From Deltaproteobacteria bacterium (GTDB taxonomy: Bacteria; Myxococcota; Myxococcia; Myxococcales; SZAS-1), in assembly GCA_018266075.1 (NCBI GenBank), contig JAFEBB010000002.1, positions 62,001 to 126,000 on the forward strand: DNA of 64,000 nucleotides, in the 5' to 3' direction. Shown piece by piece: positions 43,435-57,110 of this stretch. Position numbers and translations under genes: made by a program. Positions within the stretch are counted from its first letter, which is position 1. Each line of letters begins with the position of its first letter. Under the pieces are notes generated by a model that saw nothing but the letters and a program-made list of their open reading frames with translations, made no database searches and was not told where the DNA came from.

Positions 43435-45171
43435 TCAGAAGCGCGCGGTGGCGTTCGCCGCGGCCGTCGTCCCGAGCGGGATGAGCACCGTGTCCGAGGT
43501 CGGCGTGATCGACACCTGCGTGGCGATGAGCGTCTGCAGGCTCAGCCAGCCATTGAGCCGGAAGCGCGTCTCCACCAGCGCGCCCACGCCGTTCTCCGCG
43601 GCGTCGGTGTTGATGGCCGGCGCCCAGGCGTAGAAGTACGAGGCGCGCACGCGGAGCTGCACCGTCTGCCCGGGCAGCATCGCCGCCTCGACGTACGCGT
43701 CCCGACCGGCCATCCAGCCAAAGTTCTCGTCGTAGCCCACGCTCATTCCGCCGAACGTCCCGAGCATCCGCGGCATGCTTAGCTCCGTGCCGACGACCGT
43801 GCGATGCAGGCCGCTGTCGAGGTCGCGGCTGAAGCTGGCGAGGCCAGTGATGCTGACGGTGTCGAAGAGGTACGACGCCGCGCCCTGCGCGTGCAGCGAC
43901 GCGTCGGTGAAGTCGGCGAGCTCGGGATGCAGGAGCTGATCGATGGCGCTGTCCTCGTAGCGCACGCTCGCCCAGACCTGCGCGTGATCCGTCGGCCGCG
44001 CGTTCACGCTGAAGGTGGCGAGGTCGATGAGGTCGGGCGCCTGCACCACGCCCGAGCCCACCCGCAGCTCGGCCGAGGTGTCGAAGCCCTTGCCGATCGA
44101 CCAGAGCGCGAGGCCGTCGAGGCTGAGGTGGAAGCCCGCCCCCGGCACTTCGCGGGCCATCATCACGCCGTCGGCCTGGAACCACGAGCCCGACGCCGAC
44201 GGCCAGGTGCCCGTGACGAACGCGCCCACGAGCGGATTGGTGGTGGGCGCGGTGGTCACCGCGTTGGGGTCGGTGCCGCCGAGCAGGCCCGCCTCGAGGG
44301 TGTGGTCGAGGCTGTGCCAGCTGGCCTGGGCGCCGTCGAGCACGCCCACGCCCGGCGCCTGCGACCAGATGCGGCCCAGTGAGAACGCGAGGTGTGAGGT
44401 GAGCGGGTGGTACGAGATCGCGAGCTCGCGCACGAAGAGCTGGTTGCTGGCCGTCTCCGGGAAGCGGAAGGTCGATGGCCGCTGGAAGTACGACTGCACC
44501 GTGAGGTCGATCGACGCGTGGAAGCCCGCGCCCAGCTCGGCGTCGCGCGCGGCGGCGGTCACGGTCTGCACGAAGTAGCGCGAGCTCGAGGGATCGTTCG
44601 TGGAGAAGTAGGCCTCGGTGAGGCTCAGCTCCGAGTGCAGGTGGTGGCCGGCGAGCGCGTTGAGGCCCGAGGCCTTGCTCTCGAACGCGACCTTCTCGAA
44701 GTGGTTCGGCGCGAGCGCGGCCTTCTCCTGCGCGAGCTGCGCGCCCGTGGGCATGGGCGGCAGCGGCGTGGTGATGGTCTTGGCCTGCTTCGCGGGCGGC
44801 TCCGGCGGACTGAACGCGTCGCCGAGCTTTGGCGTGCCCTGCGCCGCGCAGGTGGCCGAGTGCGGCGACACCGTCGTCACCTGGCACGAGCTCACCGCAC
44901 GTCCGCCGCGCTTCAGCGGCAGGTTCATGCCCACCTGCAAGCCGTCGTCGGCGCCGAGGCCGAGGTACGCGGTCTTCGCGGTCACGTAGACCACCTGCGG
45001 CCCGCCGGGCAGCGAGGTGCGGTGGACCTTCGTCTTCGCCTGCTTCGCTGGCTTGGCGAACTTCGGCGCGGCGGTGTGCTTCTTCGCAAACGCGGGCGTC
45101 GCGCTCAGCACGAGCGCCAGCGCGAGCAGGCTTCGCACGCTGACGCCGCTAGGGCGAGCTGGTGATCGCAT
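43435..45171 (-). CDS. Outer-membrane beta-barrel protein of the multiheme cluster (putative porin)
   Basis: A 578-residue exported protein. The signal peptide ends TPAFA, then a Lys/Ala-rich stretch. A small domain (about 60-120; VVYVTAKTAYLGLG, DDGLQVGMNLPL) resembles the SH3-like FlgT_C-type fold and carries two Cys. The rest is barrel-like, with alternating strands and aromatic girdles (RYFVQTVTAAARDAELGAGFH, ELRVGSGVVQAP, AQVWASVRYEDSA), and it ends in ATARF with a terminal Phe. It overlaps the 3' end of the decaheme gene by 23 bases. In Mtr- and Omb-type conduits a barrel of this kind sheathes a decaheme-type cytochrome, and that is the natural inference here. Confidence 0.7.
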   Translation of the reverse strand: MRSPARPSGVSVRSLLALALVLSATPAFAKKHTAAPKFAKPAKQAKTKVHRTSLPGGPQVVYVTAKTAYLGLGADDGLQVGMNLPLKRGGRAVSSCQVTTVSPHSATCAAQGTPKLGDAFSPPEPPAKQAKTITTPLPPMPTGAQLAQEKAALAPNHFEKVAFESKASGLNALAGHHLHSELSLTEAYFSTNDPSSSRYFVQTVTAAARDAELGAGFHASIDLTVQSYFQRPSTFRFPETASNQLFVRELAISYHPLTSHLAFSLGRIWSQAPGVGVLDGAQASWHSLDHTLEAGLLGGTDPNAVTTAPTTNPLVGAFVTGTWPSASGSWFQADGVMMAREVPGAGFHLSLDGLALWSIGKGFDTSAELRVGSGVVQAPDLIDLATFSVNARPTDHAQVWASVRYEDSAIDQLLHPELADFTDASLHAQGAASYLFDTVSITGLASFSRDLDSGLHRTVVGTELSMPRMLGTFGGMSVGYDENFGWMAGRDAYVEAAMLPGQTVQLRVRASYFYAWAPAINTDAAENGVGALVETRFRLNGWLSLQTLIATQVSITPTSDTVLIPLGTTAAANATARF

Positions 45172-46108
45172 GGCACGCATAGCACTTTTGATCCGAGCAA
45201 TCGTATCCAGGCACGCCGGTGGCACCGTGGAAGCTCGCCGTGGCGTGCAGCGAGTCCATCTTCGAGCACGCGTGCGCGTGGCAGCCCGCGCAGGAGAAGC
45301 TCTGGCCGGTGCAGCTCCCCGGCGCCGTGGTGACGATCCCTTCGTTGTGGCAGGTCTTGCAGCTGATGCCGCTGTGCGGCCCGCCGGTGATCTGGAAGCA
45401 GCGATCGTGGGCGGTGAACTTCGCCGCGTGCCAGGTCGCGCCGGTGTGGCAGGTGGCGCACTGGGTGCCCAAGCCGAGCGCCAGGTGGTTCACCTGGCTG
45501 GTGACGGTGGCGTTGTAGTCGGCCTGGTGGCAGCGCACGCAATCCACGGTGTCGTGCGCGAAGTTCCGGTTGGTGACCGAGGTGTGGCACTCGGTGCAGG
45601 GGATGAACGCGTGCCGGCCCACGAGCGGGAAGTTGGTGAAGCGGTGCGCGTCGACGTTGAAGAGCGGCTGCCAGGTCTGCTCGGTGTGACAGCCCTGGCA
45701 CTGTGCGCCGAACTCGCTCTTGTGCGGATCCTCGTGGCAACCCGCGCAGGTGCGGGAGACCGGCTGGTCGAAGCCGGAGACGTGGCACTCCTTGCAGCCC
45801 GCGCCCGCGTGAGCGCCCTTGAGCGGAAAGCCGGTCTTGTCGTGGTCGAACGCCGCCTGCTTGAAGCCGCTGGTGGTGTGGCACTTCTCGCAGTTGGTGT
45901 CGTCGGCGTTCGCGGCGGCCGCGTTCTGTGAAGCGGGGAAGAGGTTCGGCTTGCTCGTCGACGTCGGCGCGGCAGCGGGCGTCTTCGCGGGCGGCACGCT
46001 CGTCGGCGTCGGGCTCGCGGTCGAAGGTCGCGCGGACGCCGCCAGCGCGCCCATCGAGCCGAGGAGCACCGCACCGCCGAGCAGAAGTGGAAGGACGCGC
46101 GCGGTCAT
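45149..46108 (-). CDS. Ten-heme c-type cytochrome (periplasmic)
   Basis: A 319-residue exported protein: signal peptide (MTARVLPLLLGGAVLL to LAASA), Ser/Thr/Pro linker (25-70), then ten CxxCH heme motifs (CEKCH, CKECH, CAGCH, CQGCH, CTECH, CVRCH, CATCH, CKTCH, CAGCH, CYACH). Interspersed are His residues in FDHDKTGFPLKGAH and FNVDAHRF, likely second-axial ligands. Size and heme number resemble MtrA (about 333 residues, ten hemes), which sits within a porin. The start ATG overlaps the stop of the 20-heme gene as ATGA, and its own end overlaps the barrel gene, so the three are tightly coupled. Confidence 0.9.
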   Translation of the reverse strand: MTARVLPLLLGGAVLLGSMGALAASARPSTASPTPTSVPPAKTPAAAPTSTSKPNLFPASQNAAAANADDTNCEKCHTTSGFKQAAFDHDKTGFPLKGAHAGAGCKECHVSGFDQPVSRTCAGCHEDPHKSEFGAQCQGCHTEQTWQPLFNVDAHRFTNFPLVGRHAFIPCTECHTSVTNRNFAHDTVDCVRCHQADYNATVTSQVNHLALGLGTQCATCHTGATWHAAKFTAHDRCFQITGGPHSGISCKTCHNEGIVTTAPGSCTGQSFSCAGCHAHACSKMDSLHATASFHGATGVPGYDCSDQKCYACHAITSSP

Positions 46109-47925
46109 TGGGTGAACTGCCTGAACTCGCCGTGGTGGAAGTCCTGATGGCAGCCCGCGCAGTTCGTCGGCAGGCCGGTGTACTTGCGCACCTCGACGCC
46201 CGCGGTCACCACCACGCTCTGGTGACACGCGTTGCAGGCCACGTTCTGGTGCTGGCCGTCGAGCACGTAGTCGGTGAACGGCGGCGCGTGCACGAACGTC
46301 GTCGCGACGGGCTTGAACGACTCCGTGTTGTGACACCGCGCGCAGTCTTCAATCTCGTCGGGCGCGTCCTTCTTGTGGAACTGGCCGGCGTGCGCGTCCG
46401 CGTGGCACGAGGCGCAGCTCTGGTTCAGCGGCCGGTACGCGACGGTGGTCACCTTGCCGAACTTCTTCGCCTGGTGGCACTGCTCGCACTGCGCCGTCGC
46501 GTGCTTGCCGGTGAGCGGGAAGCGGCTGTCCTTGTCGTGATTGAACTTGAGGTCCTTGAAGGCGCTCACCTGGTGGCACGTGGCGCAGGCCTTGGAGTCG
46601 CCGCTGCTGCGGAACTGGCCGGCGTGCGCGTCCTGGTGGCAGGTCTCGCACTGGTTCAGCGGCTTGATGAACTGCATCAACGCCAGGCTGAAGAGCAGCG
46701 GGCGCTTCTCGGCCTTGAGCAGCTTGGTCACCGACACGGGCACGCGCGTCTCCAGCGACGCCGTCTGCACGTGGCACCCGGCGCAGGGCGTGGCCGCGTG
46801 GGCGCCCTCGAGCGGGTAGCGGGTCTTCTGGTGATCCGCGAGCTCGAACTTCGCCGGCAAGAAGCCCTTCACGTCGTGGCAGGCCTCGCAGTTGCTCGCG
46901 AAGACGCCGGTGAGCTGGCCCTCGTGCGCGTCGGCGTGGCAGCTCGTGCACCTGTCGAAGGAGAGGCCCTTGAACTTCGCGGCGTGTCCCGGGAAGGGGC
47001 CGTGGCAGCTCTTGCACGCCACCTCCGCGTGCAGGCCGCGCAAGGGAAAGCGGGTCTTGTCGTGGAAGGCGCGCTCCGACTCCGCGCTGTGGATGATCTT
47101 CCAGCCCGCGGTGGAGTGGCAGCTCGAGCAGCGGTCGCCGAAGCCGCCCTTGTGCGGATCCTGGTGGCAGTCCTGGCAGCTCTCGAAGCTGATGTTGGTG
47201 AACTGCGAGAACTCGCGCTTCACCGGCGCGGGGAAGGCGCTGCCCGGCGTCTTCTTGTCCTGCAGTGGCGCGTGGCACTTCTCGCAGGCCACGGTCTTGT
47301 GCAGGCCGGTGAGCGGGTAGTCGGTCTTGTCGTGGTTGAAGCCGGGCGCGGGCTTGAAGGACTTCTCCACATGGCACTGCTTGCAGTCCGTGCTGAGCTG
47401 CCCGCGGTGTTCGTCGAAGTGGCAGGTCTCGCAGGTGGTGGGCGTGCCCAGGAACGTGTCGGTCTTGGGGTGCGCGTCGAGCCACTTGCGGATCACCGGG
47501 TCGTAGTCGCGGAAGGGCTCGTGGCAGTCGGCGCACTTCACCTTCGCGTGCGCGCCCTTGAGCGGCCAGCCCGTCTCGTTGTGCGGGAAGTTGCTCTTGT
47601 TGCCGCTGGGCCACTCGATCATCTTGAAGTCCACGCCCTGGTGATCGTGGTGGCAGTTCTTGCAGTCGCGCTTCTCCTCGGGGATGTGGCCGTGGTACCC
47701 GACGCCCTTCTTGATGCTCGGCGCCAGCTCGGTGTGGCAGGCGAGGCACTTCTGCTCGAAGTTCTCGTCGCTGCCCGCCGAGCTGTGGCACTTGTCGCAG
47801 TTCGACATGCCCTCCAGGTTCGCGTGTGGCTTCGCCAGCGGGCCGGGCGAGAAGAGGTCCGCGCGCGCGCTCGTCGCCCAGAGCAGCCCGACGATGGCGA
47901 TGGGTGCGAACCGGAGTCGGAGCAT
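46105..47925 (-). CDS. Twenty-heme c-type cytochrome
   Basis: A 606-residue exported protein with a short cleavable signal (MLRLRFAPIAIVGLLW to ARA). It has twenty CxxCH motifs evenly spread from about 44 to 590. Modules of about 60 residues repeat the theme FNHDKTxxPLxGxH, then CxxCH, then the CHxDxHxGQF pattern (DEHRGQL, DAHEGQL, DAHAGQF). Each FNHDK and DxHxGxF His is a plausible distal heme ligand. The even spacing suggests a linear heme wire. The ATG directly follows the stop of the membrane fusion protein (TAG-ATG), so the two are coupled. Probable role: periplasmic electron carrier between the inner-membrane entry and the outer-membrane conduit. Confidence 0.92.
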   Translation of the reverse strand: MLRLRFAPIAIVGLLWATSARADLFSPGPLAKPHANLEGMSNCDKCHSSAGSDENFEQKCLACHTELAPSIKKGVGYHGHIPEEKRDCKNCHHDHQGVDFKMIEWPSGNKSNFPHNETGWPLKGAHAKVKCADCHEPFRDYDPVIRKWLDAHPKTDTFLGTPTTCETCHFDEHRGQLSTDCKQCHVEKSFKPAPGFNHDKTDYPLTGLHKTVACEKCHAPLQDKKTPGSAFPAPVKREFSQFTNISFESCQDCHQDPHKGGFGDRCSSCHSTAGWKIIHSAESERAFHDKTRFPLRGLHAEVACKSCHGPFPGHAAKFKGLSFDRCTSCHADAHEGQLTGVFASNCEACHDVKGFLPAKFELADHQKTRYPLEGAHAATPCAGCHVQTASLETRVPVSVTKLLKAEKRPLLFSLALMQFIKPLNQCETCHQDAHAGQFRSSGDSKACATCHQVSAFKDLKFNHDKDSRFPLTGKHATAQCEQCHQAKKFGKVTTVAYRPLNQSCASCHADAHAGQFHKKDAPDEIEDCARCHNTESFKPVATTFVHAPPFTDYVLDGQHQNVACNACHQSVVVTAGVEVRKYTGLPTNCAGCHQDFHHGEFRQFTQ

Positions 47926-50154
47926 CTAGGGCGCGAAGAACTTGGGAACGAAGCCGAGGTACAGCGACACGCCGATGTGGGCCACGATGAGCACCACCAT
48001 GAAGATCGACAGGCCCACGTGGAGCACGCGCCACACCGCGAGGTACCGGCGCAGCACGCCGTAGAAGGTCACCTGGATGCGCACGCGCGCCAGGCTGGTC
48101 ACGCTGCGCGCGAAGTCCTCGAACTGCGACTCGCTGTCGAAGTGCGGCCGCACCCGCGCCAGCCGCCGCGGCACGCCCAGCATCTGATCCGGCAGCGCCA
48201 TGGCCAGCGACATGAAGCCGCCTTCGGTCGCCACCGCCGGCACCAGCGCCTCGAGGTTCAGCTTGCTCGTGGCGCCGGCGAGCATGGCCGAGAGCTGGCC
48301 ACGCAGGCCCTGCACCTGCCGCTGCAGATCCGCGAGGTCGATGAGCTTGCCGTCGCGCTGGGGCACCAGCGTCACCAGGAAGCGGCCGATGAGCCCCGTC
48401 GAGACCAGCACCACCATCGACGCGGCCGTCGCGCTCGCGAGCTGGTTGTTCGACTGGAACGCGGCGTGAAACGCGATCACCAGCGGTGAGAGCGTGCCCA
48501 CGAAGACGTGGAAGCTGAGCCAGGTGCGGATGTCGCCCAGGCCCTTGAGGCCCTTCCAGCGCTTTCGCAGCGCGTAGAGGTAGTTCAGCATCATCACGCC
48601 GGTGGCCACGATGCCGACGCCGTGGCCGAACGGACCGGCGGGCTTGAGCATCCTGTGCAGCGGCGACTTGAGGCGCGCGGCCTTGGCCAGCAGGTAGTAG
48701 TCCTTGCCGTGCCACCAGAGCGCGCCGATGAGCGCCGCGCCCAGGACGAACAAGCTCCACGAGACGATGCGGTTGGTGGCCTCGGCCTTCGCCGCCGGCG
48801 TGCCCGCGCGCGCGGCCTTGGGCTTGCCGTCCTTGCTCTCGCCGAGCGCTTCGCCGTGGAAGCGCTTGAGCTTGATGTCGCAGGCCTTGAGGAACTCGGT
48901 GGGCAACTCGCCGCCGAGGCAGGCGATGACGTAGTCGTTCTTCAGCGTGGCCGGCTGGCCCTCGATCTCGAGCACCACGTACTCGGGCTTCACCTCTCTC
49001 ACCGTGGTGTTGAAGAGCACCTGCACGCGGTCGCTCGCGCCCAGCGCGGCGATCTTCTCGCGGTTCGCCTGGCGGCACTTGCCGAAGGCCGCGCCGCGGT
49101 ACGCGAGGCACACCGCCGCGGTGGACTCGTTCGCGAGCTGGATCGCTGCCTCGAGCGCCGAGTCGCCGCCGCCGACGACCAGCACCGAGGTGCCGTTGTA
49201 CTGATCCGGGTCGACGAAGCGGTATGCGACCTTGGGAAGATCCTCGCCCGGACAACCGAGCGGCCTCGGCGAGCCGCGACGGCCGGTGGCGAGCACGACC
49301 CGCCGCGCGTACACCGGGCCCTTGCTGGTCTGCACCGTGAAGCGCTCCGGCTCGCCCTCGATGCCGGTGACCTTCACGTTCTCCTCGACGCGCAGCTGCG
49401 CCGAGTTGGCGATGCGGCTCCACGCCTCGATGAGCTCTTCCTTGGAGATGATGGCCTTGCCGAACTTGCCCACGATTGGCAGGTCCACGGTCTCGGTCAT
49501 CACCACCTTGTGGCGCGGGTACTGGGCCACCGTGCCGCCGAAGGTGCTCTGGTCCAGCATCCGCAGGGTGAAGCCGGCGTCGCGCAGGCCGAGCGCGGTG
49601 GCGATGCCTGCGGGCCCCGCGCCCACGATGGCCACGTCCACCGCGCTGGCCATGGGCTTGTGCTGCATGGTGCTGATGAAGTGCTGCGCGAGCTGCACGC
49701 CCTGGGTCATGGCGTTGCGGATGAGGCCCATCCCGCCGAGCTCGCCCACGATGTGCACGCCAGGCCGGCTGCTCTCGAAGACTGCATTGACTTCGGGCAG
49801 ATCCACGCCGCGCTCGCTGGTGCCGAAGACCAGGCGAATCGCGTCGACGGGGCACTCCGCGGCGCACTTGCCGTGGCCGATGCAGTGCGCGGGCTCCACC
49901 AGCACCGGGCGGTCGCCCACGATGCCCAGGATGTCGCCCTCGGGGCAGGCGTTGAGGCAGGAGAAGCTGCCGATGCAGATATCCGGGTTGATGATCGGGT
50001 ACAGCGACTGCGGGACGTTGAGGTTGTTGGCCACCGCGTCCTGCAGCTTCTCGGTGGAGGTCTCCTTGTTGTGCCGCTGTCGGCGGCGCGACACCACCGC
50101 GAAGAGCGCGATGAAGGCCGCCATCGTTCCCACGATGAGGAGGGTGTCGTTCAT
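47926..50154 (-). CDS. Fe-S/FAD/diheme-b fusion oxidoreductase (inner membrane)
   Basis: A 742-residue single-chain electron-transfer protein. Order: an N-terminal anchor helix (5-21), a two-cluster ferredoxin-like domain, a FAD-binding half (GAGPAG near 178), a NAD(P)-binding half (GGGDSA near 328) and four or five membrane helices to the end. In both ferredoxin motifs the second Cys is replaced (C60-S63-C66-C70 and C91-H94-C97-C101). Two helices carry His pairs 14 apart (H549/H563 and H712/H726), the bis-His spacing of cytochrome b. The thioredoxin-reductase CxxC is absent. I infer a NAD(P)H or ferredoxin entry point that reduces b hemes and then the multiheme proteins. The nearest flavin relatives are YpdA/TrxR-like. 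Confidence 0.8.
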   Translation of the reverse strand: MNDTLLIVGTMAAFIALFAVVSRRRQRHNKETSTEKLQDAVANNLNVPQSLYPIINPDICIGSFSCLNACPEGDILGIVGDRPVLVEPAHCIGHGKCAAECPVDAIRLVFGTSERGVDLPEVNAVFESSRPGVHIVGELGGMGLIRNAMTQGVQLAQHFISTMQHKPMASAVDVAIVGAGPAGIATALGLRDAGFTLRMLDQSTFGGTVAQYPRHKVVMTETVDLPIVGKFGKAIISKEELIEAWSRIANSAQLRVEENVKVTGIEGEPERFTVQTSKGPVYARRVVLATGRRGSPRPLGCPGEDLPKVAYRFVDPDQYNGTSVLVVGGGDSALEAAIQLANESTAAVCLAYRGAAFGKCRQANREKIAALGASDRVQVLFNTTVREVKPEYVVLEIEGQPATLKNDYVIACLGGELPTEFLKACDIKLKRFHGEALGESKDGKPKAARAGTPAAKAEATNRIVSWSLFVLGAALIGALWWHGKDYYLLAKAARLKSPLHRMLKPAGPFGHGVGIVATGVMMLNYLYALRKRWKGLKGLGDIRTWLSFHVFVGTLSPLVIAFHAAFQSNNQLASATAASMVVLVSTGLIGRFLVTLVPQRDGKLIDLADLQRQVQGLRGQLSAMLAGATSKLNLEALVPAVATEGGFMSLAMALPDQMLGVPRRLARVRPHFDSESQFEDFARSVTSLARVRIQVTFYGVLRRYLAVWRVLHVGLSIFMVVLIVAHIGVSLYLGFVPKFFAP

Positions 50155-50201: not shown

Positions 50202-53200
50202 CTAGTTGGGGCAGCTGCCGGGGTGGCAGACCTTGCAGGTCGCCGTGCAGCTGCCGTTCTGGCTGGGGTGCGTGAACTTCCAGGCCGTCTTGTAGTTGGT
50301 GCCCGTCTGCGCCAGGGCCACGCCGCTCGGCGCGCTGTGGCAGGTGCTGCAGTCGGTGCCGGTGGTGAACCAGTGCGAGGTGCCGTCGGGGCAGTTGTTG
50401 GAGTCGCAGTAGGCGCGGCTGCCCATGCCCTGACTGCCCTGGTTGTTGGTGGAGAGAGGCAGCGTGTACGGCCGCGTGTCACCGCCGCCTGCGCTCACCG
50501 ACGTCGCGCCGTTCCAATTGCTCGGGCCAATGAGCGTGCTCCCCGCCTCGTGGCAGGCGCTGCACGGCTTGGAGCCCGAGGCGTGGTCGTAGCCGATGGC
50601 GCCCTGGGTGGGCGTGCCCGTGCCATGGCAGGTGGTGCAGGAGGTGCTCGCCGTGGACGGGTGCGGCACGCAGCCGGAGATCGCGGGTTCCGTCGTCGCG
50701 CTGGTCGCGGGCGGCTGCGAGACCGCGAACCCTCCCGTCGTGATGCAGGACGGCGCGCCCGAGGTCGCGCCCAGCCAATTCGGCGACGCGATCGTGCCCG
50801 TGCCCGGGAAGGTGTGGCAGCCGCTGCAGTCCGTGGTTCCGGCCACGCTGGTGTAGCCGCTGTGGTCCACCGAGAAGGAGCTGCCCGGCTTCACGTTCAG
50901 GTGGCAGTTGCTGCACCGGCCGGTGACGCCGTCCGTGGTGAGCGTGGAGCTGCCCGTGAAGTTTGCGTGGAACTTGGCCTGCGCCCACTCCTTGCCCTGG
51001 ATGCCAGACGATGTCGAAGGTCCAGCTTGGGTGTGGCAGAGGTTGCAGCTGTGCGAGCTGACGTTCGCGTCGGCGTGGCTGATCTGATCGAGCGTGCCCG
51101 CGGCGACGCCGGTGGTGCTGTCGCTGGCCGCGGTGGTCACCGTGGTGGAGTTGGTGAGGCCCGAGGGCATGTTGTTGTTGGTGCCCGGCGTGCTCGCGTT
51201 CTGGCCGTGGCAGGTGTTGCAGCTGGTGAGGTTGGCCACCTTGCTGTGCACCGTGTCCTGCTTGCTCCAGGCGCTGCCCGAGACCTTGGCGTCGGCCGCG
51301 TGGCAGGTGGCGCAGTCCACGCCCGAGACGCCGGTGGCCGTGTGGTTCATCCACTGCGCGCCGTTGGTGGAGGTGCCGCCTTGCGCGAACGAATAGGTGG
51401 TGGCGCTCGCCGTGAGCGTGCCGGGCTCGGAGACCAGGTGGCAGTCGTTGCACTTGCCGGGCTGGGTGGTCGCGGTGAGCGAGCCGTGGAAGCCGCCGTC
51501 GGCGAACTCCGAGGCCGCGGGCGTGCCCTGCGTGGCGTGGCCCAGCGCGCTGCCGTGGCAGGTCTGGCAGTCCTGGAAGGTGAGCTGCGTGGACGCGTGG
51601 TTCATCGCGAAGAGCGTGCCGCGCGTGACGTTCGCCGCGCCGCTCGCGTCGGCCATGAGCGGGTAGTGGCACACGGTGCAGTCGCCGGGCTTGGCGTTGC
51701 CGATGGAGCCGTGGAAGTTGCCGCCCGCCCAGCTCACGCCGGGCATGGTGAAGGGCGCGCGGTGGCAGTCGCCGCAGTCCATCTGGGCCACGCTGGTGAG
51801 CATGCCGCCGTCGGAGACCACCAGGCCCTGGCCGGTGGCGAAGAGCGCGTTATGGTCCATCGGCTGCAGATCCGAGCCCGCCTCCTCGACGATGCCCGTG
51901 GGCTGGCCCGGACTCACCTCGGGCCGCATCTGCGCGTGGCAGTCGCTGCAGCCGGAGCTCGGCTGGGGCAGGCCCGCGTCGGCGAGCGCTGCGTGGAAGA
52001 CGCCGCCCGCGAATTGCGTGACCGTGGTGCCGACCGAGGTGTGACACGCCCAGCAGTTGATGTCCGGCGGCACGGGCGCGAGCTGCGAGGGCACCTGCGC
52101 CGAGGTGTGGAGCATTTCGTTGATGAGCTTCACCTGCGTCGTGGTCATGCCCGTGACGAGGTTCAGCGTGCCCGAGCGCCGCAAGGTGAGGAGCGCCACC
52201 GTGACCGACTGCGAGCCCGAGCCCGCGAGCACCGAGCCCGGGTAGGCCACGCCGCCTTGCCAGTCGCCGCCGGGGAGCGTGCCCGTGGCGGGGTTGAAGT
52301 AGTTCACGTAGTGCCCGGCCTGGACGGTGGCCTGGTGGCAGGCGAAGCAATCGCCGTTGCCGTCGGTGTGGTGGTTGAAGCTGCCGCCGTCGGGGAAGGT
52401 GACGGGCGATGCGGGCCGCTGGTCCGAGTGGCAGACGAGGCACGTCGTCGCGGCCACCGACGCGGCGGGGTCGTGATCGAAGGTGCCGCCCACCCAGTTC
52501 TGCGTGCCGCCCCACGCGCCCGTGCCCGGGCCGTTGTGGCAGGTCACGCAGTCGAGGCCGTCGCCGTGCGGATAGCCGCCGTCGGCCGTGCCGTAGTCGA
52601 ACGGCGACGCGGTGTACGTGGTGCTGGTCCAGCTGGCCGTCGACGTCGGGCGCTCGCCGTCGTGGCACGGCAAGCACGTCGAAGGCGTGGTCGCGCCCGC
52701 CGCGTGGAAGACGCCGCCCGCCCACGAGGTCCAGTCCGCCTGGCTCGCGACGTGGCAGCTCTGGCAGTCGCCGAGCGCCTCGACCGACGCATGATCGAAG
52801 GCCACGTTCGCGGGCACCGACGCCGTCTGGCAATTCGCGCCCGCGGGACACGCGCCGCCCGCAGAGACGAGGGTCTGCGTGGGTCGCGAGTTGGCGTGGC
52901 AGTCGAGGCACGAGCCGGGCTCGGTGGCGCCGGCCGCCGCGAGCGCGGGATGGTAGACGGGGCCCGCATCGCTGAAGCCCGTCGTCCAGCTCAGCGTGCC
53001 GTTGACGGCGTCGTTCACGTGGCAGGTGCCGCAGTCCTGGGTCACGAGCGCGGTGGTCGTCGGCGAGCCGTTCGACCAGGCCACGGCGTCGTGCTTCATC
53101 TCGCCCGAGGGCGGGTTGCGTGCGGGCGCGGTGGCGAGCGGGCCCACGAACCCGGTGGGCATCGAGCTCAACCCAGCCATGTCCGAGCCGGCCGGCATGG

Positions 53201-53987
53201 TGCCCGCGTGGCAGTCGTTGCACGTCGTCGGCTGCGCGATGCCCAGGCTCACCAGCGAGTCGTGGAAGTTGCCCGGGTAGTAGCTGCCCGTCGACTCGAA
53301 ACCTGCGTGGCAGTTGCTGCACGCGGCGATGACGCCACCGTCCACGGTCGTGGTGAGGTGGTTCATGGGCATGGGCAGCGTCTCGGACTGCGTCATCATC
53401 GAGGCGATGCTGGTGCCCACGAACGTCGGCAGTCCGGCGTCGACGGTCAGGTTGCGCGTGAGATCCGCCACCAGGTTGGCGGGCCCGCCGGTGGCGTGCC
53501 AGCTCCCCGTGTTGTGGCAGTTGCTGCAGTCCACGTTGACCGGCTGGTGGCTCAGGCCGCCGTCGACGGTGACCAGGCTGCCGTCGGACTGCGACGCCAG
53601 CGCCGCGAAGCTCGCGCCCGGTCCATGGCAGGTGGCGCAGCTGCCGGTGATGCCCGCGTGATCGAACGGCGGCTGCACCGGGCCGCCCGTGGGGTGGCAC
53701 TGGTAGCAAGAAGGGCTGTCGTACTTGTAGCCCTGTACCGAGAGGTGCAGCTGGTCGGTCGCGGCCTGCACCTCGTGGCCGTGGCAGCCGAAGCAGCTGA
53801 ACTCTTTGAACGTCGTGAAGCCGCCGTGGCAGGTGCTGCAGTCCTGCGCGTGCGGCCCCTGGACGATCGGAAAGTAGGTGTGCGTGTCGGGCGTGGGCGA
53901 GGTGTTGGGGTTGCCCGACTTGGGCGAGACCGAGCACGCGGCCAGGCCGAGAAGCACTCCCCCAAGGGTGCGCAGCCGCGGGCTCAT
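50202..53987 (-). CDS. Twenty-nine-heme c-type cytochrome lipoprotein
   Basis: A 1261-residue protein with a lipoprotein signal (MSPRLRTLGGVLLG, lipobox LAAC) and twenty-nine CxxCH motifs. Units of 45-60 residues repeat a WxGGxFH pattern, then a PxxCxxCH segment and a short linker. The early part (two FGCH/YQCH pairs) and the last 250 residues (CSGCH, CTTCH, CSACH, CSTCH, CKVCH) are more diverged. It ends CKVCHPGSC, with no membrane anchor beyond the lipid. Presumably it is an outer-surface cytochrome that passes electrons outward, like OmcB-type or MtrC-type proteins but much larger. A GGGAG lies before ATG 53987; the upstream frame to 54053 has no signal peptide. It is transcribed before the fusion gene, with a 47-base gap. 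Confidence 0.9.
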   Translation of the reverse strand: MSPRLRTLGGVLLGLAACSVSPKSGNPNTSPTPDTHTYFPIVQGPHAQDCSTCHGGFTTFKEFSCFGCHGHEVQAATDQLHLSVQGYKYDSPSCYQCHPTGGPVQPPFDHAGITGSCATCHGPGASFAALASQSDGSLVTVDGGLSHQPVNVDCSNCHNTGSWHATGGPANLVADLTRNLTVDAGLPTFVGTSIASMMTQSETLPMPMNHLTTTVDGGVIAACSNCHAGFESTGSYYPGNFHDSLVSLGIAQPTTCNDCHAGTMPAGSDMAGLSSMPTGFVGPLATAPARNPPSGEMKHDAVAWSNGSPTTTALVTQDCGTCHVNDAVNGTLSWTTGFSDAGPVYHPALAAAGATEPGSCLDCHANSRPTQTLVSAGGACPAGANCQTASVPANVAFDHASVEALGDCQSCHVASQADWTSWAGGVFHAAGATTPSTCLPCHDGERPTSTASWTSTTYTASPFDYGTADGGYPHGDGLDCVTCHNGPGTGAWGGTQNWVGGTFDHDPAASVAATTCLVCHSDQRPASPVTFPDGGSFNHHTDGNGDCFACHQATVQAGHYVNYFNPATGTLPGGDWQGGVAYPGSVLAGSGSQSVTVALLTLRRSGTLNLVTGMTTTQVKLINEMLHTSAQVPSQLAPVPPDINCWACHTSVGTTVTQFAGGVFHAALADAGLPQPSSGCSDCHAQMRPEVSPGQPTGIVEEAGSDLQPMDHNALFATGQGLVVSDGGMLTSVAQMDCGDCHRAPFTMPGVSWAGGNFHGSIGNAKPGDCTVCHYPLMADASGAANVTRGTLFAMNHASTQLTFQDCQTCHGSALGHATQGTPAASEFADGGFHGSLTATTQPGKCNDCHLVSEPGTLTASATTYSFAQGGTSTNGAQWMNHTATGVSGVDCATCHAADAKVSGSAWSKQDTVHSKVANLTSCNTCHGQNASTPGTNNNMPSGLTNSTTVTTAASDSTTGVAAGTLDQISHADANVSSHSCNLCHTQAGPSTSSGIQGKEWAQAKFHANFTGSSTLTTDGVTGRCSNCHLNVKPGSSFSVDHSGYTSVAGTTDCSGCHTFPGTGTIASPNWLGATSGAPSCITTGGFAVSQPPATSATTEPAISGCVPHPSTASTSCTTCHGTGTPTQGAIGYDHASGSKPCSACHEAGSTLIGPSNWNGATSVSAGGGDTRPYTLPLSTNNQGSQGMGSRAYCDSNNCPDGTSHWFTTGTDCSTCHSAPSGVALAQTGTNYKTAWKFTHPSQNGSCTATCKVCHPGSCPN

Positions 53988-54156: not shown

Positions 54157-55943
<1,787 letters not shown>

Positions 55944-55947
<4 letters not shown>

Positions 55948-57110
55948 GAGGCGCTCCCGGCCAGGCTGGCCTGCCTGCGCAGTCCACGGCGCAGCGACAT
56001 CGCGAAGTGAATCACCAACCCCAGCGCCACCATCGCGCAGGAGATGTACGGCAAGAGCCAGCCCGGGTTGTCGACGACCTGGAGGATGGAGAGCGTGTCG
56101 TTCTTGCCGAAGCTCGCTTGGTAGAACGCCTTGCCCCCGTAGCGCAGCGGCGAGTTCATGTAGATGAGCACGTCGCGCTCTTCGCCGCGCGCGGGGTTCG
56201 AGAGGTGCACCAGGCTGGAGAAGTTCTTGGGAACGTCGGTGCCCAGGTACACGTCGTGGCTGAACTTCTTGAGCGTGAGCGCGTAGGGCAGGCTCTGGCG
56301 CCGCGGGCGCATGGAGAGCTGGTACTTGCGGCCCTCGTGGAAGAACATCTGCGGCGCGCCGAGCGCAGGCGAGACCAGCCAGGTGCCGTAGCTCTTGCCG
56401 GCCGCGACGGGCTCCACGAAGACGGCGCGCGTGTCGAACGCGTCGTCGGCGGTCACCGGCGGGAGCTCCTGCACCGCGACCTGGGGACCAATGCCCGCGG
56501 TCGCCGGCGAGGGCGGATCGTTCGGCTGACGCATGCCCAGCTTGGCGTTGCGGTAGTAGTCGCGCACGTTGACGGTGAGCGGCGTGCCCGGAATGGCCAC
56601 GCTGCCGAGGCGCTCGAGCATCGACTCGGGGATGGCGTACTCGTCGTCGAACTTGGGGTCGGTGCCGTCGGTGATGACCAGCTCCATGTCGCGCGGGCTC
56701 TCGAGGTAGCTCAGCGTCTGGCCTTGCTCGATGGCCATGCGCATCTCCACCTGCATCGCGCCCGACACGAACTGGCCCACCATCAAGAGCACCAGCCCGG
56801 CGTGCACGATCCACAAGCCGAGCTGCCGCCAGTTGAGCTGGATGCGCTTGAGCTGCGCGGCCACGAGGTTGAGCACCAGCACCGTACCCACGGTGGCGCC
56901 GCCGGGGAAGACGGGGAGCTTCAGCGCGGTGCCGGGCACGTGCCACCACACCACGAAGCAGTTCATGAACTTGTGGACCGCGGCGTACGTGCCCAGCTCC
57001 ACCTGCGCCAGCGTGCAGGCGACGACGAGCACCATCAACAGTGCCAGGCACGCGATGGCGAGCTGGAACGAGGTGAGCGCGCTCCAAATGGTCTTTCGGC
57101 TAATTCGCAT
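55944..57110 (-). CDS. resB: ResB family cytochrome c biogenesis protein (System II partner)
   Basis: A 388-residue membrane protein. An N-terminal helix (about 12-34, FQLAIACLALLMVLVVAC) is followed by a second helix (GTVLVLNLVAAQL), a third near 104 (GLWIVHAGLVLLMVGQF), a large periplasmic domain (120-345) and a C-terminal helix (YISCAMVALGLVIHF). The order and the H in WIVHAG match ResB/CcsB, which keeps the apocytochrome Cys reduced and partners CcsA in heme attachment. It overlaps the upstream lipoprotein gene by 11 bases and the downstream gene by ATGA, so expression is coupled to the whole set. Confidence 0.88.

Follow-up and report, generated by a model that had tools for sequence, protein, structure and literature searches.

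A flavo-ferredoxin fused to a PCC3-type diheme-b membrane protein: a candidate NAD(P)H-linked inner-membrane gate of a porin-cytochrome conduit

INTRODUCTION

PCC3 is a porin-cytochrome conduit that was first described in iron(II)-oxidizing bacteria (PMC5566968). Its inner-membrane protein (IMP), of about 300 amino acids (aa), has five transmembrane (TM) helices, with WX3HX13H on TM3 and TM5 and SGxxG on TM4 (He et al. 2017, PMC5566968). In Bradyrhizobium and others, the IMP neighbors a periplasmic cytochrome of about 21 hemes and very large extracellular cytochromes, and up to 85 hemes are reported in one cytochrome (PMC5566968). He et al. compared the IMP with FRD/NOX (ferric reductase and NADPH oxidase) and with bc1, and proposed a quinone-active cytochrome b for the PCC3 and PCC4 IMP; the word ferredoxin is absent from the main text of that paper (PMC5566968). 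Later papers on PCC3 name four genes (PMC10734462, PMC12442390, PMC8788666, PMC12016527), and in the PCC3 literature to 2025 the function of the IMP is proposed without test. PCC3 clusters are widespread and have heme counts among the largest known. How they connect to metabolism is the question addressed here, starting from a gene in a 64,000-nucleotide stretch of a Myxococcota genome (the window) in which a predicted PCC3-type IMP is fused to a ferredoxin-FAD/NAD(P) protein, or flavo-ferredoxin.

RESULTS

A fusion protein with a predicted PCC3-type membrane half

The gene reads from position 50154 down to 47926 of the window, and its product has the following parts.

47926 to 50154, minus strand: fusion protein of 742 aa, with an N-terminal anchor, a two-cluster ferredoxin domain, an FAD/NAD(P) domain, and a WX3HX13H diheme-b-type membrane domain
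50089 to 50145, minus strand: N-terminal TM anchor (residues 4 to 22), a hydrophobic segment followed by RRRQRHNK; an anchor of the same kind is present on the separate flavo-ferredoxins of other phyla
49834 to 49998, minus strand: ferredoxin domain (residues 53 to 107) with CxxS63xxCxxxCP and CxxH94xxCxxxCP, from Pfam and alignments
48862 to 49644, minus strand: YpdA/TrxR-type FAD and NAD(P) domain (residues 171 to 431), no CxxC, from Pfam, a family profile, and a fold match
47956 to 48798, minus strand: five-TM diheme-b-type domain (residues 453 to 733), homologous to the PCC3-type IMP, from alignments, a model, and a profile match
48508 to 48510, minus strand: His549 codon, predicted N-side heme ligand, from motif and conservation
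48466 to 48468, minus strand: His563 codon, predicted P-side heme ligand, from motif and conservation
48019 to 48021, minus strand: His712 codon, predicted N-side heme ligand, from motif and conservation
47977 to 47979, minus strand: His726 codon, predicted P-side heme ligand, from motif and conservation

We identify the membrane half as a predicted IMP of PCC3 from its motifs, its size, its gene neighborhood, and Bradyrhizobium clusters that reach 83 hemes. WX3HX13H occurs twice, as W545/H549/H563 and W708/H712/H726 on TM3 and TM5, and the next-to-last TM helix (TM4) carries TGLIG (residues 586 to 590), of the S/TGxxG motif class conserved across the family. All 35 fused and all 9 separate homologues examined keep the two W and the four His residues, even though the nine separate ones are just 21 to 28% identical. 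A profile made from the separate cytB (IMP-like) genes alone matched the window domain with an E value of 2.5e-50, and it matched 52 of 195 Myxococcota genomes.

As in PCC3, the operon has a periplasmic cytochrome of about 20 hemes (46105 to 47925) and a larger, predicted extracellular cytochrome (50202 to 53987, 29 CxxCH), and the window domain is homologous to IMPs in PCC3-like clusters. The candidate for the porin is the putative barrel protein at 43435 to 45171. However, no gene of its own encodes the IMP as a protein of about 300 aa. It sits behind an anchored ferredoxin-FAD/NAD(P) protein that is absent from the four published components. Further differences are the Ser and His in place of cluster Cys residues and an additional 10-heme cytochrome in the window operon. 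Because its IMP is fused to a flavo-ferredoxin, the window system is a PCC3-like variant and not a standard PCC3.

The open reading frame (ORF) has a codon-position GC content of 0.66/0.45/0.96, and homologues with about 50% identity over the full length occur in many Myxococcota genomes of the same order. Therefore, it is a real gene; the long antisense ORFs at this position are an effect of the 70% GC.

The two halves are adjacent, co-occurring genes in other phyla

We gathered 80 related loci (L013 to L092) by a pattern scan and found three arrangements: 40 loci, nearly all from Myxococcota, have the fused ferredoxin-FAD-b order, 37 have separate genes by script (a count that includes at least one probable broken fusion, L053), and 3 have the reverse order. 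The reverse-order genes, with the b domain first and ferredoxin-FAD last, are from Myxococcales (L069:4348-6342, L080:9761-12124, and L088:3017-5368). The fusion is joined to other frames by long ORFs in L042 and L067; these resemble assembly frameshifts, and we left them out of the evidence. In a quick tree of the flavo-ferredoxin domains, the ferredoxin-FAD-b fusions group together and the reverse pair L080/L088 stands apart, with moderate support. Therefore, there were likely at least two fusion events.

The separate halves occur in Pseudomonadota, Krumholzibacteriota, Neomarinimicrobiota, Planctomycetota, Gemmatimonadota, and Latescibacterota. In Neomarinimicrobiota, Planctomycetota, Latescibacterota, and Gemmatimonadota the two genes lie side by side, and in Pseudomonadota most of the pairs are divergent; the Krumholzibacteriota-like gene order is cytB, 20-heme cytochrome, larger cytochrome, porin, and ferredoxin-FAD. 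Among 369 Gammaproteobacteria genomes, a strong IMP match was found in 42 and a strong flavo-ferredoxin match in 43, with both in 41, the IMP alone in 1, the flavoprotein alone in 2, and neither in 325 (Fisher P = 7e-51). For 37 of the 47 IMP copies in these genomes, the ferredoxin-FAD gene lies within 2 kb, mostly 200 to 700 bases away. In the sole IMP-only genome, an internally deleted ferredoxin-FAD remnant adjoins the IMP (L166:3805-4149). Because the two modules are separate, adjacent, and co-occurring genes elsewhere, we conclude that they belong together.

A second gene set in Gammaproteobacteria (L163:2584-7616, L164:2306-7535, and L167:3089-8001) encodes a WX3HX13H membrane protein and a protein of about 800 aa. 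The latter has FAD/NAD domains, two cyclic-nucleotide-binding domains, and Fer4 (domains checked in L164), and next to the set lies a decaheme cytochrome that carries an FHA domain (checked in L163). The pairing is of the kind described above, with the parts ordered differently, and it may be gated by cyclic nucleotides.

The operon has the predicted make-up of a porin-cytochrome conduit

The fusion gene stands among tightly packed genes on the same strand.

50202 to 53987, minus strand: multiheme c cytochrome with 29 CxxCH and a lipobox-like LAAC start, predicted extracellular or outer-membrane lipoprotein
46105 to 47925, minus strand: periplasmic multiheme c cytochrome with 20 CxxCH and a signal peptide; its ATG is immediately 3' of the fusion stop codon
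45149 to 46108, minus strand: periplasmic multiheme c cytochrome with 10 CxxCH; its start overlaps the stop of the 20-heme gene
43435 to 45171, minus strand: predicted outer-membrane β-barrel with a C-terminal Phe; start codon uncertain, with the ORF extending to 45225
54157 to 57110, minus strand: adjoining upstream genes for c-type cytochrome assembly, Cytochrom_C_asm at about 54316 to 54924 and ResB-like at 55944 to 57110

Judged from their sequences, the 29-, 20-, and 10-heme cytochromes and the predicted barrel amount to the make-up of a porin-cytochrome conduit. The putative barrel protein has a signal peptide and no Pfam match, and its family occurs in 39 of the 80 related loci. Cytochromes with at least 8 hemes are found in 70/80 loci. 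The largest seen is a 2,359-aa cytochrome with 83 CxxCH from Bradyrhizobium sp. BR13661 (L068), whose neighbors are an unfused IMP and flavo-ferredoxin; the count in L055 is 73. The alphaproteobacterial clusters L050, L055, L057, L059, L060, L068, and L070 have, as judged from sequence starts only, what are probably their own genes for cytochrome c maturation (CcmF-like and others), and in these clusters a TPR-like protein often stands beside the flavo-ferredoxin.

The membrane domain may hold two b hemes

A Pfam search of the fusion protein found Fer4_10 (6e-10; residues 53 to 102) and Pyr_redox_3 (1e-41; residues 176 to 429), and the last 300 residues gave no Pfam match. A preliminary description of this locus had placed ferredoxin, FAD/NAD, and diheme-b domains in one chain and had called for such a search. 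Pfam bears out the first two domains, and the C-terminal third is assigned from its motifs, from which we infer heme b in the membrane domain.

We built an AlphaFold2 model of the full fusion protein from 54 sequences (pLDDT 88.9, pTM 0.81); the b domain modeled alone gave a pLDDT of 89.5 and a pTM of 0.79. All four His residues lie within predicted helices (542 to 563 and 675 to 732). With a turn of about 320 degrees and a rise of about 21 Å over 14 residues of helix, each pair would lie on one helix face at the spacing of stacked hemes. The earlier observations that the paired His residues are exactly 14 apart and in helices are upheld. With the ferredoxin/FAD part in the cytoplasm, as predicted below, the two His helices would run in parallel, which would place H549 and H712 near the cytoplasm and H563 and H726 near the periplasm. 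Each heme would then be held between the two helices, one by H549 with H712 and the other by H563 with H726, and not within either 14-residue pair. We also considered H500 and H511 as extra ligands. They are kept in most fused forms but not in the separate IMPs, and so are not core ligands.

The ferredoxin motifs are non-canonical and the FAD domain is YpdA-like

The ferredoxin domain does not have the two complete CxxCxxCxxxCP motifs of a 2[4Fe-4S] ferredoxin. The second Cys of both motifs is replaced, a feature that the preliminary description had missed: the first is CIGS63FSCLNACP (C60-x2-S63-x2-C66-x3-C70-P) and the second is CIGH94GKCAAECP (C91-x2-H94-x2-C97-x3-C101-P). Ser63 is present in 34 of 35 fused homologues, with Cys in the other one, and most separate flavo-ferredoxins have Cys there, so that their first motif is usually complete and the sole remaining replacement is the His. 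His94 is conserved in 45/45 sequences checked, a count partly selected among L013 to L092, where the scan patterns were CPEGDILG and CIGHG[RK]CA; relatives found before the pattern scan and loci that match CPEGDILG alone are free of this bias. On isolation, ferredoxins with CxxHxxC or CxxSxxC were [3Fe-4S] proteins whose potentials were shifted (PMC6237146). By analogy, the clusters of the fusion protein are likely of the [3Fe-4S] type.

The nucleotide motifs GAGPAG (at residue 178) and GGGDSA (at residue 328), the N-terminal anchor, and the absence of CxxC were all noted in the preliminary description, and all are found in the 742-aa product. Since no CxxC occurs anywhere in the protein, it lacks the redox-active CxxC of a thioredoxin reductase, and that identity was rejected. 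By both sequence and fold (a significant fold match), the FAD/NAD part is nearest to the bacillithiol disulfide reductase YpdA/Bdr, and the Foldseek matches listed in the PDB for the full-length model are relatives of the FAD domain only. The fusion protein shares with YpdA/Bdr the lack of CxxC, but it is membrane anchored, carries ferredoxin and b domains, and scores 154.4 bits against the cutoff of 339.9 for NCBIfam TIGR04018 (YpdA/Bdr); thiol chemistry is not expected. Arg353 is invariant among the aligned fusion homologues, and its position is presumably where TrxR binds the 2'-phosphate of NADPH. By this analogy, NADPH may be favored over NADH.

Basic residues follow the anchor, in a segment rich in Arg and Lys, and are present in the loop that precedes the first His helix; they suggest that the ferredoxin/FAD part is cytoplasmic, although the first periplasmic loop is basic too.

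Comparison with other transmembrane electron carriers

Like NADPH oxidases and ferric reductases (FRD, PF01794), the fusion protein has an FAD and NAD(P) domain and two helices, each with a 13- to 14-spaced His pair of the HX13H type that gives two stacked b hemes in that family, and electrons would cross the membrane within one chain. Unlike them, it carries a ferredoxin domain. Membership in FRD was rejected, since no FRD match above the curated cutoff is listed in Pfam for the fusion protein and hhalign gave a probability of 2%; profile-profile comparison with ferric reductase/MsrQ proteins from relatives likewise gave a probability of 1 to 2%. The protein does not qualify as a bc1-type cytochrome b: it has no Pfam cytochrome b match and no sequence or fold match in the PDB for this domain, and no Rieske-like gene is among the annotated operon proteins. 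The operon resembles MtrCAB/MtoAB in its periplasmic and (for MtrCAB) predicted surface multiheme cytochromes and, with the putative barrel protein, probably in its porin. However, CymA of those systems is a quinol-oxidizing NapC-type tetraheme c protein, and no gene of the NapC/CymA family was found in the genome that carries the window.

DISCUSSION

We suggest, with a probability of roughly 0.6, that the fusion protein is the inner-membrane gate of a PCC3-type conduit, in which a diheme-b IMP and its NAD(P)H-linked flavo-ferredoxin partner form one chain and electrons move outward from NAD(P)H. We infer the cofactors, the order and outward direction of electron flow, the preference for NADPH, and the independence from quinones as follows. 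NAD(P)H, probably NADPH, would reduce FAD on the cytoplasmic side. The electrons would pass from FAD to the two non-canonical Fe-S clusters, to the heme b near the cytoplasmic face, and then to the heme b near the periplasmic face. From there they would reach the 20-heme (and 10-heme) periplasmic cytochromes, the β-barrel, and the 29-heme surface cytochrome. The fusion protein may function in the manner of a NADPH oxidase or ferric reductase that has its distal end outside the cell. Outward flow is downhill, whereas electrons moving inward to NADP+ would go uphill and oppose the membrane potential. As an analogue, the pairing of WX3HX13H and FAD/Fe-S proteins beside the FHA-decaheme cytochrome counts in favor of this proposal. 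The flavin splitting (bifurcation) put forward in the preliminary description found no supporting evidence.

Several observations weigh against the proposal. A Foldseek search of the b-domain model against the PDB gave no match at an E value of ≤0.001, which leaves the cytochrome b fold unconfirmed, and a PDB sequence search with the IMP profile returned one spurious syndecan match and nothing else. Among the separate IMPs, 11/22 match Ferric_reduct weakly (Pfam, subthreshold, best E value of 2.6e-4), and 15 have a weak subthreshold match to DUF4405. The CxxHxxC clusters of other proteins are [3Fe-4S] clusters of rather high potential (PMC6237146), so the order of the carriers is unsure. The preference for NADPH is taken from one conserved Arg, by analogy with TrxR. 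Finally, the NapC/CymA family is present in 17/21 genomes with the fusion, by our count. Quinone routes therefore coexist with the fusion in most of these genomes. The preliminary description had the fusion replacing a separate quinol dehydrogenase. This is possible in the window genome, which has no NapC/CymA family gene, but it does not hold generally.

The published PCC3 model leads to the strongest of the alternatives, which we nevertheless consider unlikely: the b domain would exchange electrons with the quinone pool, and the flavo-ferredoxin half would be a second entry or exit, as a NAD(P)H:quinone reductase or in reverse flow from quinol to NAD(P)+. Quinone sites are common among diheme cytochrome b proteins whose His helices are paired. 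A quinone-active cytochrome b is also what He et al. proposed for the PCC3/PCC4 IMP (PMC5566968). However, no quinone-site motif was identified in the fusion protein, and a quinone-only model makes superfluous the dedicated NAD(P)H flavoprotein that accompanies nearly every IMP and is fused to it in Myxococcota.

Electron uptake, in which an outside donor would feed the conduit, the b hemes, and then NADPH or reduced ferredoxin, seems improbable. Its carriers are chemically reversible, and PCC3 was first found in iron(II) oxidizers; one PCC3 copy of Sideroxydans sp. CL21 has an IMP that is upregulated during active iron oxidation (PMC12442390). In S. lithotrophicus ES-1, by contrast, both PCC3 clusters are at a lower level with Fe(II) than with thiosulfate (PMC8788666). 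By general bioenergetics, reduction of NADP+ by donors in the Fe(II) range has the same two obstacles as any inward flow. Least probable is a soluble low-potential ferredoxin as the main donor, with the FAD/NAD domain regulatory or balancing NADPH and ferredoxin: the TrxR-type FAD domain resembles ferredoxin-NADP reductases too, but the bound clusters have Ser/His for the second Cys, and similar clusters that contain His have a potential above that of ordinary ferredoxin (PMC6237146).

The proposal of an NAD(P)H-linked gate may reach beyond the window. Because of the co-occurrence in 41 of the 42 Gammaproteobacteria genomes with a strong IMP match, usually within 2 kb, and the reverse-order fusions, the flavo-ferredoxin looks like an unrecognized component of PCC3. 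From these gene patterns it appears to be a general and overlooked one, the fifth. A flavo-ferredoxin as a PCC3 component is unmentioned in the searchable PCC3 literature to 2025, which takes in no preprints and few subscription papers, so that an earlier report is possible. More tentatively, and with somewhat greater doubt than belief, we extend the proposal to PCC3-type conduits at large, as NADPH-driven, quinone-independent extracellular reductases in which an anchored NADPH flavo-ferredoxin and a diheme-b IMP, as a pair or as a fusion, would feed a 20-heme periplasmic cytochrome and an outer cytochrome of 29 to 83 hemes.

The fusion, the reverse fusions, and the co-occurrence put a name to this fifth component, and they make the choice between quinone and NADPH directly testable. 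The wire through the outer membrane may be fed by NADPH inside the cell and not, as earlier proposed, by membrane quinones. If so, cofactors would form an unbroken chain between cytosolic NADPH and the outside of the cell, an arrangement undescribed for porin-cytochrome systems in the searchable literature. A system fed by NADPH would use up reductant beyond the cell instead of conserving energy. This would change the view of its use, whether in mineral or humic reduction, redox balance, or oxidant defense, and the system would offer a handle for genetic work and a single-chain part for bioelectronics.
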